A program made the translations under genes and the position numbers. Positions 36,479-43,259 of a DNA stretch of 43,264 nt are shown here, one piece after another. Below the pieces are notes generated by a model. The model had not been told where the DNA came from. It saw only the letters and a program-made list of their open reading frames with translations, and did not search any database. The DNA is from Candidatus Scalindua sp. (GTDB lineage: Bacteria; Planctomycetota; Brocadiia; Brocadiales; Scalinduaceae), in assembly GCA_018670825.1 (NCBI GenBank), contig JABHIW010000028.1, positions 1-43,264 of the forward strand, written 5' to 3'. Each line of letters begins with the position of its first letter. Position 1 is the stretch's first letter.

Positions 36479-37213
36479 CTACGATGCTGCCTCTAAGAGG
36501 CTTTCCAGCTTAACCCTTAACACACCAAGGTCTTTAGATTTAAAAGTATCCTTCGTTTTTTTCAGAATTGCCACTGTCTCCACCAAAGCTTCTCTCAACT
36601 TAACACTTCCGTGTAGATTTTGTATAGATTGCTCATCGTTTTCCATAACTACCGTTTTTACCATATCTCTCAATCTCATCAGAGTATCAAAAATATTTTT
36701 AAACGAAATATCCAGGTAGGAATTGAGTGTCCTAAGGCTTGCATCCTTAGATGCCTTATTTATCATATTCTCAATAGTATCCAGATCCAGCCTCCACTTC
36801 CTGATACTTCGTTGTACTTCCAGGGTAACATCACGGCAGATACTGATATTTGTAAGTACTTTACTAACCAGTTTCAATAATTCCTCAAAATCAACTGGCT
36901 TTAACAAATAGTCATAAACTTGAAATCTTAGTGCTCGAATTGTATTCTCTATTGAAGGATAAGCAGTTACCAATATGACAGGTATTCCATCAGCAATTTG
37001 AGAAATATTACTGATTAACTCCATATCAGAGTTTCCAGGCATGTTAATGTCGGAAATCAGGAGATCATATTCATTTGATCCCAGCATCTCTATAACAGAC
37101 TTGGAATCTGAAGCGCAATCACATATATAGCCATTTTCACGCAGTATGATGGAAGTTGCTTTTAAGAAAATCACTTCGTCGTCAGCTAACAGTATTCGTT
37201 TCTTTTGTGTCAT
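36479..37213 (-). CDS. Response regulator with receiver domain and a helical C-terminal domain
   Basis: About 244 residues. The receiver domain shows Asp11-Asp12, phospho-acceptor Asp55 (LLISDINMPG), Thr83 (ILVTAYPS) and Lys105 (LLKPVD). The C-terminal 110 residues are predicted helical and match no output domain that I can name; no HTH, GGDEF or HD motif is present. The ATG at residue 25 of the longer frame (MTQKKRILLADDE) is taken as the start. It probably takes part in the same signalling network as the chemoreceptor and kinase on this strand. Confidence 0.85.
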   Translation of the reverse strand: MTQKKRILLADDEVIFLKATSIILRENGYICDCASDSKSVIEMLGSNEYDLLISDINMPGNSDMELISNISQIADGIPVILVTAYPSIENTIRALRFQVYDYLLKPVDFEELLKLVSKVLTNISICRDVTLEVQRSIRKWRLDLDTIENMINKASKDASLRTLNSYLDISFKNIFDTLMRLRDMVKTVVMENDEQSIQNLHGSVKLREALVETVAILKKTKDTFKSKDLGVLRVKLESLLEAAS

Positions 37214-37403
37214 AACAATAATCTTAAAATATTTTATATAAAAATCAACATTTAAAAAGCTTAAAGTATGCTGCCTTAAATACAACTTAACAATATTCTA
37301 TCAGGGTTTCAAATTTTTCAAAAATACATCATATGAAACAGGTTTTGTAACAAAGCGGTAAACACCATTCACCTATGCATCATCGCAATAAATATAATTC
37401 CAG

Positions 37404-37787
37404 TCAAATCTTGATAATATGAAGAATTTGATTATAACTGTCTTGTTCCGATTTGATCTGATCACGAATAAAAATATTATATGAATGCAATTCATGCATA
37501 ACCTTATCCTCAGAGGCGCCGTCTGCCAGTTTCATAGCAACACTTTTATACCTTTTTGCCACCGAACTATATAACACTGCCAACCTTTTTATTCCAGCTA
37601 CCTTTCTCAATAAAAAACCCTTATGAGCCGCTCCTTTTGTTCCCGGTGTGTGGCATGATGTTATTATAGTTTCAACTTCTCTATTAACATCGTTAGCATA
37701 TACCGTCACGGTACGTGCTGCATTCATAAGCTCCTGAATAATGTTTTCACTACTATGTTTTCCTACGGTATTTTCCATATCTGCCAT
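37404..37787 (-). CDS. Small helical protein of unknown function
   Basis: A 127-residue protein, almost entirely helical, with no signal peptide or membrane segment. I recognise no motif. It starts MADMENTVGKHSSENII and has a central basic part (KGFLLRKVAGIKRLAVLYSS). It lies between the response regulator and the chemoreceptor on the same strand. It may be a four-helix bundle signalling protein, but this is a guess. Confidence 0.55.
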   Translation of the reverse strand: MADMENTVGKHSSENIIQELMNAARTVTVYANDVNREVETIITSCHTPGTKGAAHKGFLLRKVAGIKRLAVLYSSVAKRYKSVAMKLADGASEDKVMHELHSYNIFIRDQIKSEQDSYNQILHIIKI

Positions 37788-38272: not shown

Positions 38273-40300
38273 TTAAAAACCATTAAATCTGTCTTCTTGG
38301 CCGGAAGCTGTCTCATCTCCTAACGGAATCAGCGCGAATGCATCTTCATTATCCTTAGCCTTTTTTTGAGTAGTCCCTCCGTTATCATTTCCACTTACCG
38401 TTGGAGCCTGATACTGCTCATGGCATATCTGAGAGACGTTATTCCTACCAGTTTGTATTTCATCTTCTTCAGCATCATAACCAACCAGTTTTGATAATAT
38501 ATCAACCTGGTCCTTCAAGGTGTGTGCCTGTGCTGACATCTCCTCGCTGGCTGATGCCGATTCCTCAGAGCTAGCAGCAATCTGTTGTGTTACCTGGTCC
38601 ATCTGTTGAACTGCAACATTTACCTGGCTTATTCCCTCAGATTGTTCAGAAGAAGCATTTGTGATTTCCTCAGTCAGGACTGTTGCTTTCTTAACATTAG
38701 CAACAATATCTTGTAACGCATCATTGCATTTACCGGTAAGTTCGACTCCTTTGCTTGCCTTGTTAACACAATCATCTATCAGTGCTGTCGTATCCTTTGC
38801 CGCCGTCGCGCTTCGCTGTGCAAGGTTACGAACTTCCTCTGCCACTACCGCGAAGCCCTTTCCATGTTCACCTGCCCGTGCTGCTTCTACTGCGGCATTA
38901 AGTGCCAGAAGGTTAGTCTGGAATGCTATTCCGTCTATTACCTTTGTAATCTCAGCTATCTTCTTACTGCTAATGTTTATCTCTCCCATTGAAGTGTTCA
39001 TCTCATCAACAGCCTTGTTGCCATTGTCTGCGGAGGAACTGCACATTTTTACAAGCTTAGCTGCTTCTCCGGCATTTTTAGCATTCTGTGCCGTTACTGA
39101 TGACATCTCTTCCATTGTTGCAGATGTCTCTTCAAGTGAAGATGCCTGCTCCGATGAGCCTTCCGCGAGGTTTTGACTCGAACCCGATATCTGACCAGCT
39201 GCATCTGCAAGTTGTGAAAATGCGGATGTCAACTCCTTAACTACTTTTTTAATTGGCTCAGTTATCTGTCGGGTTATATTCTTTGGCAGGAAGACAGTTA
39301 TTATTATGGAAAAAGTTAAACCAGCGGCCAGCAATATCCACTCCAGATTCATAAGTGATGCGGTAAGACTTTTCGCTTTTATTGCGTCAGTTGCCATCAG
39401 CTGTTGTTGATTCGCTACCATACCGTCAAGCTGTTCTTTGATTGCAAAAGCTGTTGGAGCTGCCTTAGCTGCCAGCCACAAGTGAGCCAGATTCCATTCT
39501 TTGCCACCTCTTATCTCAAACATCTTTGAAGGTAATGGAGCAAAAACCTCTCTTGCACTGCTGAATGCAGCAAAAGCTTCAGCCTGTTCAGGAGAAAGAA
39601 GTGTAGAATGATCGGTTAGATCACCAAATCTTTTTACGTTCTTGGCCCATAATGTATCAAACTTCTTTTTAAACTTATCATCGCCTGAGAGTAAAAATGC
39701 ACGTATGTTCGCAAGCGCCAGACCTGTAGTACCCCTCACGTCTGCCATCATACCGAGCAGTGCTTTTCTATCTGCTGTTGCTTCCAAACCAGCCTCCAGA
39801 TCGATCAACCGGGTAATGTTGGTGATCATTATTGCCGCCTTTGGTGCTGCCTCTTCGAACAGAATCTTCAAAGCCGGTGTATTGTCCACTGTTTGTGCAA
39901 CGTCTTCTATATCCTGCTGATATTTTTTAAAATCTATCAGGTTCTTCTCGATAATTTTGAGCCTTTCCAAATTCTTCGGGTTAGTCCAGTTAAGTGCATA
40001 TTTCTTCATATCAGCTAATGAAGTATCTATCTCTTCAGACCATGCGATTGCCCTCTCTTCTCTGAATTTATCCTTACCCAGGATGATATAGCCTCGAAGT
40101 GCAGCAAGTGAGTGGTTGATCCCATTAAGTATTGAGAGACTTGTATGAGCAGTGGGAACACGTAATTCTATTAGCCTGTTGTTTACTTTATTAGTCTTTT
40201 CCACCTGCCATATGGTAGTCAACACTGCGGCAGCAAGTACCAGCGTAATTAAGCCGAATCCAAGTGACATTTTTATTCCTATCGACATATTCTTAAACAT
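38273..40300 (-). CDS. Methyl-accepting chemotaxis protein
   Basis: A 675-residue chemoreceptor. A membrane helix ([19 protein letters not shown], about 13-31) is followed by a long helical periplasmic sensor of the four-helix-bundle type, a second membrane helix ([18 protein letters not shown], about 324-342) and a cytoplasmic signalling coiled coil. The conserved hairpin tip reads [31 protein letters not shown] (present in two pieces around the AARAGE core). The tail lacks the CheR-binding NWETF-type pentapeptide. No cheA or cheW gene is in the window, so partners lie elsewhere. Confidence 0.93.
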
Positions 40301-40461
40301 TTCTAATAATCCTCCATGATTAATATTAAAAAATTAAAACAGCTCTGAAAAAAAGTGTTTCAATAACATATAGTTTCTATCGTCTTTTTCCTAATTTTGC
40401 CGTTAGAAATATTAAATTATGAGTACTGAGTAGATATTGCCAACCCTACAGTCCGTCTAAT

Positions 40462-40854
40462 TCAACGTTTCTCTTCGCTTATCACTTTTCTCAATACTTT
40501 TACCAGATCATTGTTTTTAAACGGCTTGCGAAGGACATCGCTTATACTGTACTTTCTAAAATTTTTCATAACCTGCTCATCGATACTACCACTGGACAAA
40601 ATTATTTTAGTCCCACAATCTATTTGAAACAGCTTCTCTATTGCCTCCTCTCCTCCCATGCCGCCAGCTACTTTTAAATCCATTATTACCGCATCAAAAG
40701 GTTTGTTTGAACCTATTGTACCCTTGAATAATGTTATTGCCTCGTTACCATCTTCAGCAACCTCTACCTCATAATGATTACGATTGAGCACTTTTGTGAA
40801 AATATATCTCAAGTCCTCTTTATCATCCATCACCAGAATTTTCCCATTATTCAT
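40462..40854 (-). CDS. CheY-like single-domain response regulator
   Basis: A 130-residue stand-alone receiver. Asp10-Asp11, phospho-acceptor Asp59 (AVIMDLKVAGG), Ser87-Ser88 and Lys110 (LRKPF) are all in place. No output domain is present, so it acts by protein contact or phosphotransfer. GTGGAGG lies about 15 bp before the ATG. Its leader holds two tandem structured RNA copies, each with its own terminator, so expression is probably controlled by transcription attenuation or read-through. Confidence 0.9.
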   Translation of the reverse strand: MNNGKILVMDDKEDLRYIFTKVLNRNHYEVEVAEDGNEAITLFKGTIGSNKPFDAVIMDLKVAGGMGGEEAIEKLFQIDCGTKIILSSGSIDEQVMKNFRKYSISDVLRKPFKNNDLVKVLRKVISEEKR

Positions 40855-40911
40855 AAGTCGTATTTACCTCCACATTATTCACTGCAGAACAACATACACG
40901 AACCCCAGATC

Positions 40912-40968
40912 AAAAAAAAAGGCGCAATCGAATACGTCCTCTTAAATTGGACTATTCGTTTGCGCCTT
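40912..40968 (-). terminator. Intrinsic terminator of RNA copy A
   Basis: The arms at 40949-40968 and 40919-40939 pair over about 20 bp with one mismatch and one bulge, around a 9-nt loop (AATTTAAGA on the minus strand), followed by nine T residues. It ends about 55 bp before the CheY-like gene start. Confidence 0.85.
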
Positions 40969-41034
40969 CGACCCGCAGGCTCTTAACCTGCTGACAAGGC
41001 AACCTGCAACGTTCTTGCAAGCTGTTTTAAATGT
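40912..41034 (-). ncRNA. Tandem structured RNA element, copy A (leader of the CheY-like gene)
   Basis: On the minus strand the RNA runs from CAGCTTGCAAG to a T-tract. It folds into a small GCAA/TTGC hairpin, then a stem GCAGG/CCTGC (40987-40991 with 40975-40979) closed by the 7-nt loop TTAAGAG. It ends in a 20-bp terminator hairpin. GCCTT just upstream of the central hairpin can pair with AAGGC at the start of the terminator, so two alternative folds are possible. Copy B is about 90% alike and its changes mostly keep the pairing. I do not recognise the family: it does not match the c-di-GMP, glycine or cobalamin riboswitch patterns I know. Confidence 0.65.
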
Positions 41035-41160
41035 ATTTTATATATTATTTTCTCATCTTAATCTTCAATTGGCTCGGATATCATTATGTCTCTTCCCTAT
41101 AATTCTAATATCAAAATCTGCATTATTCACTTCAAAGCAACATACATGAAACTCAAATGA

Positions 41161-41216
41161 AAAAAAAAGGCGCAATCGAACACGTCCTCTTAAATTGGAC
41201 TATTCGTTTGCGCCTT
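41161..41216 (-). terminator. Intrinsic terminator of RNA copy B
   Basis: The arms at 41197-41216 and 41169-41187 pair as in copy A, with the same 9-nt loop, followed by eight T residues on the minus strand. One change from copy A turns an A-U pair into a G-U pair. Confidence 0.85.
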
Positions 41217-41278
41217 CGACCCACAGGCTCTTAACCCGCTGACAAGGCAACCTGCAACTCTCTTGCAAGCTGTTTTAA
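41161..41278 (-). ncRNA. Tandem structured RNA element, copy B
   Basis: A second copy of the element at 40912-41034, same strand, about 248 bp upstream. The central stem changes from GCAGG/CCTGC to GCGGG/CCTGT and so keeps pairing through G-U. The terminal loop and the TTAAGAG loop are unchanged. Flanking sequence is also duplicated on both sides (for example ATTGAAGATTAA upstream and GTGAATAATG downstream), so the repeated unit is about 200 bp. TTGAAG and TATAAA spaced by 16 nt lie just upstream (around 41284-41315) and may be its promoter. Confidence 0.65.
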
Positions 41279-41330
41279 ATAAATTATATTTATATTTTTT
41301 ACATTTTAATCTTCAATTAGCTCGAGCGTT

Positions 41331-41981
41331 TTAATCTTTCTTCCGTACAACTACAACTTTATTATCGGAAGCTGCATATAAAACTTTAGCATTTATGATA
41401 TGAATGGAAACTCGCAAAAAATGAGCCAATCTTGAGCCCCATAATGTGTTTCCTGGATATATGTCCTCTACACCAGAATATAATTATCTATAAGCTGATA
41501 TTTAACGGATAGTGTGTATGGTTTATAACTCCTTGTTCAACAGTACGATATCTTCTCGTTTTGAGTAAATATTTCTATAGCATACATCGCTTTCTATATG
41601 ATTTAAGACAGGATGAACATTCGCAAATATTTTTATACATAAAGAGATTGGAAGGAATATGTTACAAATACGTAGCTTAATCTGTTTGTCATTTAAACAC
41701 ATTGTTGTTTATTCGACAACTGTTTGTGCTTGATAATATATTGATAGGATATCAGATGGAAAAATTTTCCTTACAGATAACTTATTAATGAAATAAGTTC
41801 TTTGCCACCACTATAAAACAAGCAACTTGAGAAATGTAAATCCAGCTTTATTATTAGACATCTATAGCTAAGTATAGCATGAAAGATATCCGGGATTCAG
41901 TATCAGTAGGATGTTGTTTCATGTCTTTTGCAATGAAGCGTGAGGCTTCCTCAACTAGATTAGATTATATTTAATATCTTT
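41331..41981. other. Gene-free stretch upstream of the tandem RNAs
   Basis: I find no intact gene in these 650 bases, which lie downstream of the sensor kinase stop. Apart from the amidase remnant at 41759-41824 the sequence is AT-rich and carries no hairpin that I could define. Confidence 0.5.
41759..41824 (+). pseudogene. Degenerate 3'-end remnant of an amidase gene
   Basis: This stretch matches the last 20 codons, stop and a few bases beyond of the amidase gene at 36288-36350 at about 86% identity. The translation reads KNFPYR, a stop in place of Gln, then LINEISSLPPL and the normal stop. Nothing upstream matches the gene body. It is the tail of a lost duplicate. Confidence 0.7.
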
Positions 41982-43259
41982 TCACTCAAATATTATTTGA
42001 AATTTAGTCCCTTTAATACTTCTATCCAGAGTAACCTTGCCTTTAAGCTGGTCTTCTGCTATCAGAACAACCAAATTAAGACCTAAAGAATCAATAGTCC
42101 TAAAATCCAAATTCTTCGGCATGCCAACACCATTATCACAAACAATCAGTTTAATTTTATTGTCCTGGGCTTGTAAAAGGGAGATACCGATTTCAGGTTC
42201 TTCCTGCTTGTCTTCAGGAAGAACCTGATCTGAGTCAGAAAAGACTGTTCTGCTCTTGTAAAAAGGAAATGCATGTTTAAGTGAATTAGAAAGGAGCTCA
42301 TTAACAAGTAATCCAAGTGGCACCGCCTGTTCGATCTTAAGCGAAACATCCTTGATGTTTAACTTTAATGAAATCTTTCCTGATCCTATCCCATAAGAAC
42401 TGAATAATTTGTCAGCAAGGGTACTGACATAGAGAGAAATATTTATATTTGACAGGTGGTTTGACTCATACAGTATCTCATGGATTATAGCCATTGACCG
42501 AATACGATTCTGAGCATCCTTAAATACCTGAATGCTGTGTTCATCCTTTACATGTCTGGTATGAAGCAGAAACAGGCTGGATATTACCTGTAAATTATTT
42601 CTTACCCGATGATGTATTTCCATGAGGAGCGCGTTTTTCTCTTTAAGCGAGGCTTTTATCTGTTCATCTGCATGCTTGCGATCAGTAATATCTTCCTTGA
42701 TAGCAACGAAATTAGTTATAAGACCCTCATCATTTTTTATTGGTGAAATAGATGCAGATTCCCAATAGAGTCCGCCATCCTTTTTCTTATTACAAAATTC
42801 TCCACACCATTCGTTGCCTAATGTAATCGTTTTCCATAACTCTTTGTATACTTCAGGTGATGTTTTACCTGATTTTAAGATACGCGGATTTGCTCCAACG
42901 GTTTCTTCAAGACTGTAGCCGGTAAGTTGTGTAAACTTTGGATTGACATATTCAATGTTGCCTTTAGTATCCGTAATCACAACAGAACTGGGGCTTTGCT
43001 CTACAGCGTAAGACAACTTGCTGACCTCTGCAGTACGGTCTTTAACACGGCGTGCAAGTTTATCATTGGTTCCCCTTAACTCCTCCTCTACCGCTTGTAG
43101 TTTTTTTACGCTTGCTTCTAATTCTTTTGTCCTCTCCTGGACCTTCTCCTCTAAACGATCCCGTGCCCTGCATACCTCTTTCTTGCTCGAATCTATTTGG
43201 AAAATAGTATCTCTCAGAAGGTCCGCTTTTATAGAAGAAAGATAAGCCAATGCTCGCAT
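41982..43259 (-). CDS. PAS sensor histidine kinase of the HisKA_2 type, possibly partial at its N-terminus
   Basis: At least 425 residues. A coiled coil (RARDRLEEKVQERTKELEAS onwards) leads into a PAS domain (about 85-195, with ITDTKGNIEYVNPKF and a PAC-like FVAIKEDITDRK). Then come the HisKA_2 phospho-acceptor EIHHRVRNNLQ (His216) and the ATPase domain with N-box LVNELLSNSLKHAF and G1 CDNGVGMP. No membrane segment is seen in this part. The ATG at 43259 is five bases from the window edge and no in-frame stop precedes it, so the gene may begin farther upstream. The likely partners are the CheY-like protein or the response regulator on the same strand. Confidence 0.9.
   Translation of the reverse strand: MRALAYLSSIKADLLRDTIFQIDSSKKEVCRARDRLEEKVQERTKELEASVKKLQAVEEELRGTNDKLARRVKDRTAEVSKLSYAVEQSPSSVVITDTKGNIEYVNPKFTQLTGYSLEETVGANPRILKSGKTSPEVYKELWKTITLGNEWCGEFCNKKKDGGLYWESASISPIKNDEGLITNFVAIKEDITDRKHADEQIKASLKEKNALLMEIHHRVRNNLQVISSLFLLHTRHVKDEHSIQVFKDAQNRIRSMAIIHEILYESNHLSNINISLYVSTLADKLFSSYGIGSGKISLKLNIKDVSLKIEQAVPLGLLVNELLSNSLKHAFPFYKSRTVFSDSDQVLPEDKQEEPEIGISLLQAQDNKIKLIVCDNGVGMPKNLDFRTIDSLGLNLVVLIAEDQLKGKVTLDRSIKGTKFQIIFE

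Follow-up and report, generated by a model that had tools for sequence, protein, structure and literature searches.

What function is served by two closely similar, structured and terminated RNA segments placed one behind the other in front of a CheY-like gene? This question is raised by a leader in the window, the whole 43,264-nucleotide stretch of DNA analysed here, which belongs to a metagenome-assembled genome of Candidatus Scalindua sp. (G000; 4.45 Mb, 178 contigs, 93.5% complete). The leader lies in a 1.1-kb gap between a histidine kinase gene and a receiver-domain gene, and its features and those of the surrounding genes are as follows:

41982..43259, minus strand: PAS histidine kinase (HisKA_2, PAS and HATPase_c domains), upstream of the leader
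41362..41388, minus strand: sigma-28 (FliA)-like promoter, TAAAGTTT-N11-TCCGATAA, with 15 of 16 consensus bases; its -10 element ends 86 nt before copy a
40873..41324, minus strand: tandem duplication of a 205-column unit (41324-41121 and 41076-40873; 89.3% identity, spacing 248)
41160..41275, minus strand: copy a of the RNA element, with P1 at 41271-41249, P2/antiterminator at 41248-41212 and terminator at 41217-41160
40912..41027, minus strand: copy b of the RNA element, with P1 at 41023-41001, P2/antiterminator at 41000-40964 and terminator at 40969-40912
40462..40854, minus strand: receiver-domain-only (CheY-like) protein of 130 aa (PF00072 at residues 6-121, E 8.8e-18), 57 nt past the T run of copy b
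38273..40300, minus strand: methyl-accepting chemotaxis protein (MCP; PF00015, 4HB_MCP_1), the next gene after the CheY-like gene
37404..37787, minus strand: 127-aa helical-bundle protein of chemosensory clusters, with no match in Pfam or NCBIfam
36479..37285, minus strand: response regulator with an unassigned C-terminal helical region

A sequence-only reading of this locus had described two tandem minus-strand copies before a single-domain response regulator, each closed by a terminator hairpin and a T run. Both points are confirmed: the two units align as listed with the PF00072 gene behind them, and the 3' end of each copy is a long hairpin followed by 9 T residues. Neither hairpin was listed by a stock terminator scan, which has a loop limit of 8 nt where the predicted loops have 9. 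The stretches containing the copies fold with unusual stability (z = -5.1 for copy a over 151 nt, z = -6.3 for copy b over 156 nt), and none of 200 shuffles equalled either value. The two copies differ in P2, GCGGG/CCTGT in one against GCAGG/CCTGC in the other, and the differences are tolerated through G-U pairing, as had been noted.

Homologues of the element were sought by BLAST and with covariance models. BLAST in G000 revealed four further places, three of them near full length and one a terminator half that matches the other strand too, and half-length matches were found in G001, G003, G006 and G014. At E<=0.01, a covariance model built from 12 copies (R1) had matches in 9 of the 17 genomes of the family. 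Two of these, G008 and G013, were not picked up in the scan of the order with R2, a 19-row model that covers the 5' part and leaves out the terminator. With R2, matches in the window's order were found in 7 of 62 genomes, all of one family, so that the distribution is very patchy. Of 392 genomes drawn from the window's phylum, at least 3 (G630 included) had a match to R2, as did at least 1 of 395 drawn from the phylum of the Deltaproteobacteria MAG; within the class of that MAG the count was 2 of 85, and within that of G630 it was 1 of 29. In the large scans few candidates of each genome are scored (13 out of hundreds to thousands for the phylum draws), which makes these counts lower bounds. 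With repeats included, the search comprised 1,077 genome scans. Copies a and b, which are in both training sets, score 114.1 and 118.0 bits with R1 and 72.4 and 73.6 bits with R2.

Altogether 23 good copies were retained in 10 genomes (7 in G000, 3 each in G001 and G003, 2 each in G009, G014 and G062, and 1 each in G006, G016, G063 and G630). Seven of the hosts belong to the Scalindua family (anammox Planctomycetota), and the other three are a planctomycete from a different class (G630) and two "Deltaproteobacteria" MAGs (G062 and G063); the relatives' contigs carrying the element include those of Candidatus Scalindua rubra and S. arabica. Nineteen of the 23 are training rows of R2 and match it by construction, and the other four were found through R1 (L027, L055 and L082:2897-2952) or R2 (L087, in G630). 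All counts out of 23 leave aside three weak matches, L028 (G013), L029 (G008) and L079:4848-4962 (C158), as well as the opposite-strand R1 matches to the terminator palindrome (10 rows), the opposite-strand R2 matches in L057, and locus L050 (E 0.35). Two of the weak matches, L079:4848-4962 and L029:1501-1607 (both minus strand), are degenerate relatives without a proper P2, each located shortly 3' of a large MCP-like ORF; they are perhaps decayed copies that now serve as plain terminators. The third, at L028:1439-1612 (plus strand) in G013, has a pair of partial cores one behind the other, scoring 25.1 and 16.6 bits with R2, before a REC-HDOD gene and represents a second tandem.

A search of genome contigs with the exact P2 pattern yielded seven stretches, five from Scalindua or Planctomycetota and two from the Deltaproteobacteria MAGs, and the same pattern had no match in viral contigs. 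The Deltaproteobacteria stretches carry P1 and the terminator too, although the pattern specified P2 only, and one of them has a second copy. Contamination by Scalindua DNA as the source of the G062, G063 and G630 copies was rejected on the GC content of the contig stretches, which is 46%, 54% and 66%, respectively, versus 37-40% in Scalindua.

Comparison of the copies defines a common architecture. P1 is a hairpin of 8-10 bp that is free in sequence while its pairing is kept and strongly covarying; by reading of the folds it is absent or replaced in 3 of the 23 copies (G001c, G003c and G016). P2 follows directly 3' of P1 with no linker, its 5' side reading GCCUUG-YCG-URCAGG and its 3' side CCUGU-AAGUYG-AAGGC. 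The last of these strings, AAGGC, is at once the base of P2 on its 3' side and the 5' foot of the intrinsic terminator. All 23 copies have AAGG at this shared place, and 22 of them have the CTT of the opposing P2 strand. The alternative pairing of GCCTT with AAGGC that had been proposed for the window is thus substantiated, as both strings are present, can pair and compete with the terminator foot. Less was left of the emphasis on the loop string TTAAGAG: it does occur in both loops, of P2 and of the terminator, in both window copies, but among the 23 copies it is found in only 5 P2 hairpins and in 2 terminator hairpins, those of the window itself. The doubled string is therefore no conserved feature, and TTAAGAG was dropped as a common recognition string.

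The covariance-model search of related genomes, which the sequence-only reading had suggested as a check, thus found homologues with the same structure elsewhere, and the covariation among them is strong. When 25 copies (L029 and L079:4848-4962 included) were aligned by fitting to R1, 92.4% of 774 cells were paired and both-sided changes were seen in 22 of 32 pairs; slid structures reached 36-47% paired, and none of 500 shuffles attained any of five measures. In a 19-row MAFFT alignment covering the 5' part, whose counted pairs were chosen by eye from alignments of the copies, 95.2% were paired, with both-sided changes in 10 of 21 pairs and again no shuffle of 500 reaching these figures. For the P2 and antiterminator pairs alone, 94.0% were paired (24-51% in slid versions) and 5 of 13 pairs showed both-sided change; in the shuffle test 0, 4, 0, 0 and 0 of 500 reached the five measures. 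The covariation of the full structure, together with that of the P2/AAGGC pairs alone, indicates that both competing folds were kept in evolution.

This covariation also bears on whether the element is merely a dispersed mobile repeat, a REP- or MITE-like palindrome with no regulatory role. Several dispersed copies per genome are indeed present, and by reading of ORFs an IS66-like transposase gene (L078:6835-8065, plus strand) adjoins copy G062a and a REP-associated-transposase-like gene (L014:2-877, plus strand) lies at the locus of copy G001b. However, base changes in P1 are matched by compensating ones, P2 is conserved, and the orientation towards genes of one functional class is kept in three lineages. 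A mobile repeat with no function is disfavoured by the covariation, and we consider it very improbable.

The predicted energetics of the two folds were compared by forcing each state. The terminator was favoured in 22 of the 23 copies, by 0.2 to 12.3 kcal/mol (2-8 kcal/mol in 17 of 23), and the antiterminator in a single one, C27, in which the terminator arm is degenerate. All five antiterminator base pairs are standard in 17 copies, and four of the five in the other 6. Removal of the AAGGC foot leaves a terminator hairpin with predicted energies between -3.0 and -20.1 kcal/mol across the 23 copies, in most of them below -14. Since the footless terminator is still predicted to be stable, closure of P2 may weaken termination and not abolish it, and the switch may be partial. 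Two copies vary in the shared segment. G001b has A-U instead of G-C as the pair at the base of P2, which leaves P2 intact and the terminator with a G-G mismatch, and in G014b RNAfold pairs an altered terminator foot with an altered 3' arm, the model alignment being gapped there.

A layout of terminator and antiterminator is also that of a translation-coupled attenuator, in which a leader peptide would govern the choice between the folds. A conserved short leader ORF over the antiterminator was sought in the 23 copies and not found: 19 of them have no candidate ORF (at least 8 codons, with an SD-like motif, overlapping the element), and the four candidates, with TTG or GTG as start codons, are unrelated. 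We give hardly any credence to such a mechanism here.

The genes behind the element are much alike in kind. The nearest same-strand gene encodes a receiver domain in 11 of 23 cases (both window copies counted) and is of another signalling type in 7 of 23. By type, the nearest genes without a receiver domain of the first kind are those for MCPs (2), a histidine kinase (1), HD_5-domain (HD-GYP-like) proteins (2), a hemerythrin (1) and a homologue of the 127-aa protein (1), and the remaining ones encode large surface-type proteins with no Pfam match (2), an unknown protein (1) and a TPR protein (1); there is none in G016. The receiver gene was assigned by similarity for C158, where the frame is broken, and for G063, where it is cut by the contig end; the former (L079:3814-4163, minus strand) is split over two frames, owing to an assembly error or because it is a pseudogene. 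Counting the same strand only, a gene start lies within about 460 nt behind 22 of the 23 copies. For the G016 copy, which sits 3' of a CheX gene, no same-strand ORF of at least 90 aa was present in the 650 nt searched behind it. In G630 the TPR gene behind the copy overlaps a CheA-type gene (Hpt, dimerisation and ATPase domains), and in G003 each of two copies has a receiver-domain gene of its own behind it, at 45 nt in one case and with an uncertain start codon in the other. The copies in L003 and L004 stand before similar large secreted-type proteins, with gaps of ~400-490 nt and no Pfam match. In the window the MCP gene is presumably co-transcribed with the CheY-like gene, and PADLOC gave one weak match, on a receiver domain.

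A possible source of transcription for the window leader is the sigma-28-like promoter upstream of copy a. The sigma-28 consensus used in the scans is TAAAGTTT-N11-GCCGATAA. With the first -10 base left free, the window promoter has 0 mismatches in 15 positions and is the sole match in the window at up to 2 mismatches, where the mean expected by chance is 0.25. Each of 26 upstream regions, those of all three weak matches included, was compared with 200 first-order resamplings: 8 contain a significant sigma-28-like site (p<=0.005) and 18 do not, among them that of copy b (best site 10/16, p 0.7). In 338 kb of strand sequence, a set chosen around the RNA copies whose site density is not a genome average, 10 sites reach at least 13/16, and 8 of these have a copy no more than 220 nt downstream; the resampled window predicts ~3.5. 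A scan for sigma-70-type promoters on both strands of 40400-42000 found 9 against 7.4 expected in shuffles, and a promoter for copy b is therefore without support from that scan. FliA itself was detected above the NCBIfam cut-off in 14 of 17 family genomes, and not above it in G000 (93.5% complete), G011 and G012. Several RNA copies of G000 are preceded by sigma-28-like promoters all the same, which suggests a missing contig or another sigma factor.

The sequence-only reading had left the choice between a tandem switch and two small RNAs acting in trans. According to the latter possibility, each copy would give rise to a small RNA of ~120-200 nt with its own terminator, in some cases sigma-28-driven, and its neighbours would be incidental. 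Strong terminators, several copies per genome (7 in G000), flagellar-type promoters and gaps of 250-490 nt to the gene at several copies are all in keeping with this, and in Campylobacter small RNAs of the flagellar cascade with FliA-dependent genes are described in excerpts of PMC11187230. However, same-strand signalling-type genes follow 18 of 23 copies, the two G003 copies each have their own receiver gene, and the antiterminator pairing is conserved, the conserved P2 including GCCUU with an evident role in competing for the terminator foot. Small RNAs acting in trans thus fit less well, and we regard them as unlikely; the part of the earlier proposal that stands is a leader with mutually exclusive folds.

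Is this leader an RNA that is already known? A search of the loci of all 23 copies with Rfam 15 (4227 models) returned no family at the gathering cut-off, in agreement with the earlier statement that the element could not be matched to a known riboswitch class. In the window, with no match at gathering, the highest-scoring sub-threshold match within the element is Plastid-psbA-2 at 22.4 bits, on the terminator stem; 18 homologue loci had no match at E<=1, the 10 matches of 6 further loci at E<=5 all stayed below gathering and outside the element, and the G630 copy had 5 sub-threshold matches at E<=10. These sub-threshold matches are chance-like or fall on the terminator stem. In the literature, covered mostly as abstracts and listings, cyclic-dinucleotide riboswitches and flagellar small RNAs turned up, and a chemosensory leader RNA of this shape did not; no leader RNA described there for chemotaxis or anammox bacteria was recognised as the element. 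A word search of the motif surveys PMC11109978, PMC8632094 and PMC2864571 found no mention of chemotaxis, cheY or flagell*. The Rhodopirellula-1 motif, which has no Rfam number, resembles the element in its occurrence in Proteobacteria and Planctomycetes and its presumed cis-regulation, as given in its row in Table 1 of PMC2864571. The lack of any Rfam family at the cut-off, the failure of the loop rule for ANTAR targets (see below) and the negative outcome of the literature search together point to a new RNA family. As far as the searches reach, with Rhodopirellula-1 known by description only, the family is of a known kind (an attenuation leader and possible riboswitch) and new in structure, gene set and host range. 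We conclude that the element is probably a new family of cis-acting leader RNA that controls chemosensory genes through transcription attenuation.

Most likely the element is an ON switch, in which antitermination is brought about by holding P2 closed. According to this model, transcription of the window leader would start near 41352, as judged from the promoter, and P1 and P2 would fold first. By default the terminator would then take AAGGC and the polymerase would stop. A bound factor that holds P2 closed would let GCCUU withhold AAGGC from the terminator foot, weakening the terminator beside the U run, so that the CheY-like and MCP genes would be expressed. As the only sigma-28-like promoter of the window precedes copy a, the polymerase would have to pass two switches before reaching these genes, and two copies behind one promoter would mean two decisions in series, with a tighter OFF state and a steeper response. 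The steps up to the competing folds come from comparison and prediction, and from these we infer the switch, its direction and its trigger.

The factor may be a small molecule or an RNA-binding protein, and the evidence is not decisive either way. The way P1 adjoins P2 and the conservation of bases within P2 would suit an aptamer; the near-continuous conserved hairpin, the 3 of 23 copies with no standard P1 and the ANTAR-like layout would suit a protein. In the latter case an RNA-binding regulator, maybe one with a receiver domain, would bind P2, perhaps with P1, and block the terminator in the manner of ANTAR or BglG/LicT proteins. As excerpts of PMC3369931 describe them, ANTAR targets (the eutP, nasF and amiE leaders) likewise have two hairpins before the gene, the 3' side of the second being the 5' foot of the terminator, and the regulator EutV is a receiver-ANTAR protein. 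The helix of P2 is also conserved in sequence on both sides, which favours a protein. Unlike ANTAR targets, however, the element has no 5-12-nt linker and its P2 is long and sequence-conserved. Under the published loop rule (hexanucleotide loops with A1 and G4, as given in excerpts of PMC3369931), P1 conforms in 2 of 23 copies, P2 in 1 and both in none, and the element was accordingly rejected as an ANTAR target. An ANTAR domain was found in none of the 17 family genomes searched, although a control set of 14 genomes was silent as well.

In BglG/LicT RAT leaders, which belong to sugar-uptake genes, an antiterminator hairpin overlaps the terminator foot. The element shares this overlap, and copy b has a sub-threshold match to the corresponding family (Rfam bglG-cis-reg, RF03530); the match is one of 21.3 bits against a gathering threshold of 80, however, and the genes of the element are chemosensory.

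A protein that might fill this role is encoded in the window itself. Homologues of the response regulator at 36479-37285, with 29-42% identity, are found on contigs with RNA copies in G001, G014, G062 and G063, hence in Scalindua and in both Deltaproteobacteria MAGs; their loci, in no particular order, are L055:745-1488, L078:8772-9515, L057:6274-6960 and L081:484-1095. Their C-terminal end carries a conserved motif, ETVxVLKKTKxSFKSKDLGxLRxKLE, common to Scalindua and the two MAGs. On account of these homologues on RNA-bearing contigs, it looks as if the lineages have a chemosensory module in common as well as the RNA. The response regulator is a candidate antiterminator protein; because its C-terminal region is modelled poorly (block pLDDT about 40-70), RNA binding by it is a guess. 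The 127-aa protein, whose homologues occur at loci with RNA copies in C158, G006 and G001 and as fragments in G014, was also considered as an RNA binder and set aside: AlphaFold2 predicts a helical bundle (mean pLDDT 86), for which there is no PDB match at E<=0.001. The G001 homologue has its own RNA copy in front. Taken together, we hold a protein-dependent antiterminator to be a possibility that falls somewhat short of an even chance.

If the factor is a small molecule, P1 and P2 would be the aptamer that binds a signalling metabolite, such as a chemosensory cue or a cyclic dinucleotide, and P2 with the terminator would be the expression platform. A covarying, aptamer-like domain is present in what the promoter suggests to be a 5' leader, and mutually exclusive folds are supported by prediction and comparison; P2 has conserved and partly unpaired bases (YCG/AAGUYG), the P1-P2 junction is free of a linker, and the conservation extends across lineages. 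The genes behind the copies (MCP, REC, HD-domain and surface proteins) are of the kind controlled by GEMM riboswitches. GEMM riboswitches occur in several copies per genome, and their core secondary structure differs from that of the element. Their genes, like those of the element, concern the environment, membranes and motility according to excerpts of PMC9262584; unlike them, the element gave no match to the Rfam GEMM families at the cut-off, nor to any other Rfam riboswitch family. In addition, P2 is a nearly continuous hairpin with few unpaired bases, and the lack of a standard P1 in 3 of 23 copies would be odd for a ligand pocket. A small-molecule riboswitch is likewise a possibility somewhat short of an even chance, on a par with the protein. 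It may be speculated, with some doubt on our part, that the element is a new riboswitch class for chemosensory arrays in which an aptamer for a signal metabolite gates chemotaxis genes (those for receiver proteins, MCPs and HD-domain proteins and a CheA operon) by antitermination, often under sigma-28. Equally speculative is the wider form of this riboswitch reading, in which the class would be common to anammox planctomycetes and to Deltaproteobacteria MAGs with related response regulators, and the window would hold two switches in series.

The element, a probable leader RNA and an orphan, combines a coherent gene set and good covariation with variants provided by nature (tandem, P1-less and GC-rich), which make it a target for a ligand or protein search. 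We know of no pure culture of Scalindua, and the leader would give a handle on how these bacteria decide to build chemosensory arrays. The window tandem, as a natural series circuit, could be tested in vitro. Finally, in L005 and L008 a palindrome-like sequence, CAATTGAC...GTYAATTG, is located ~20-50 nt before P1 of two copies, and is possibly a candidate protein-binding site.
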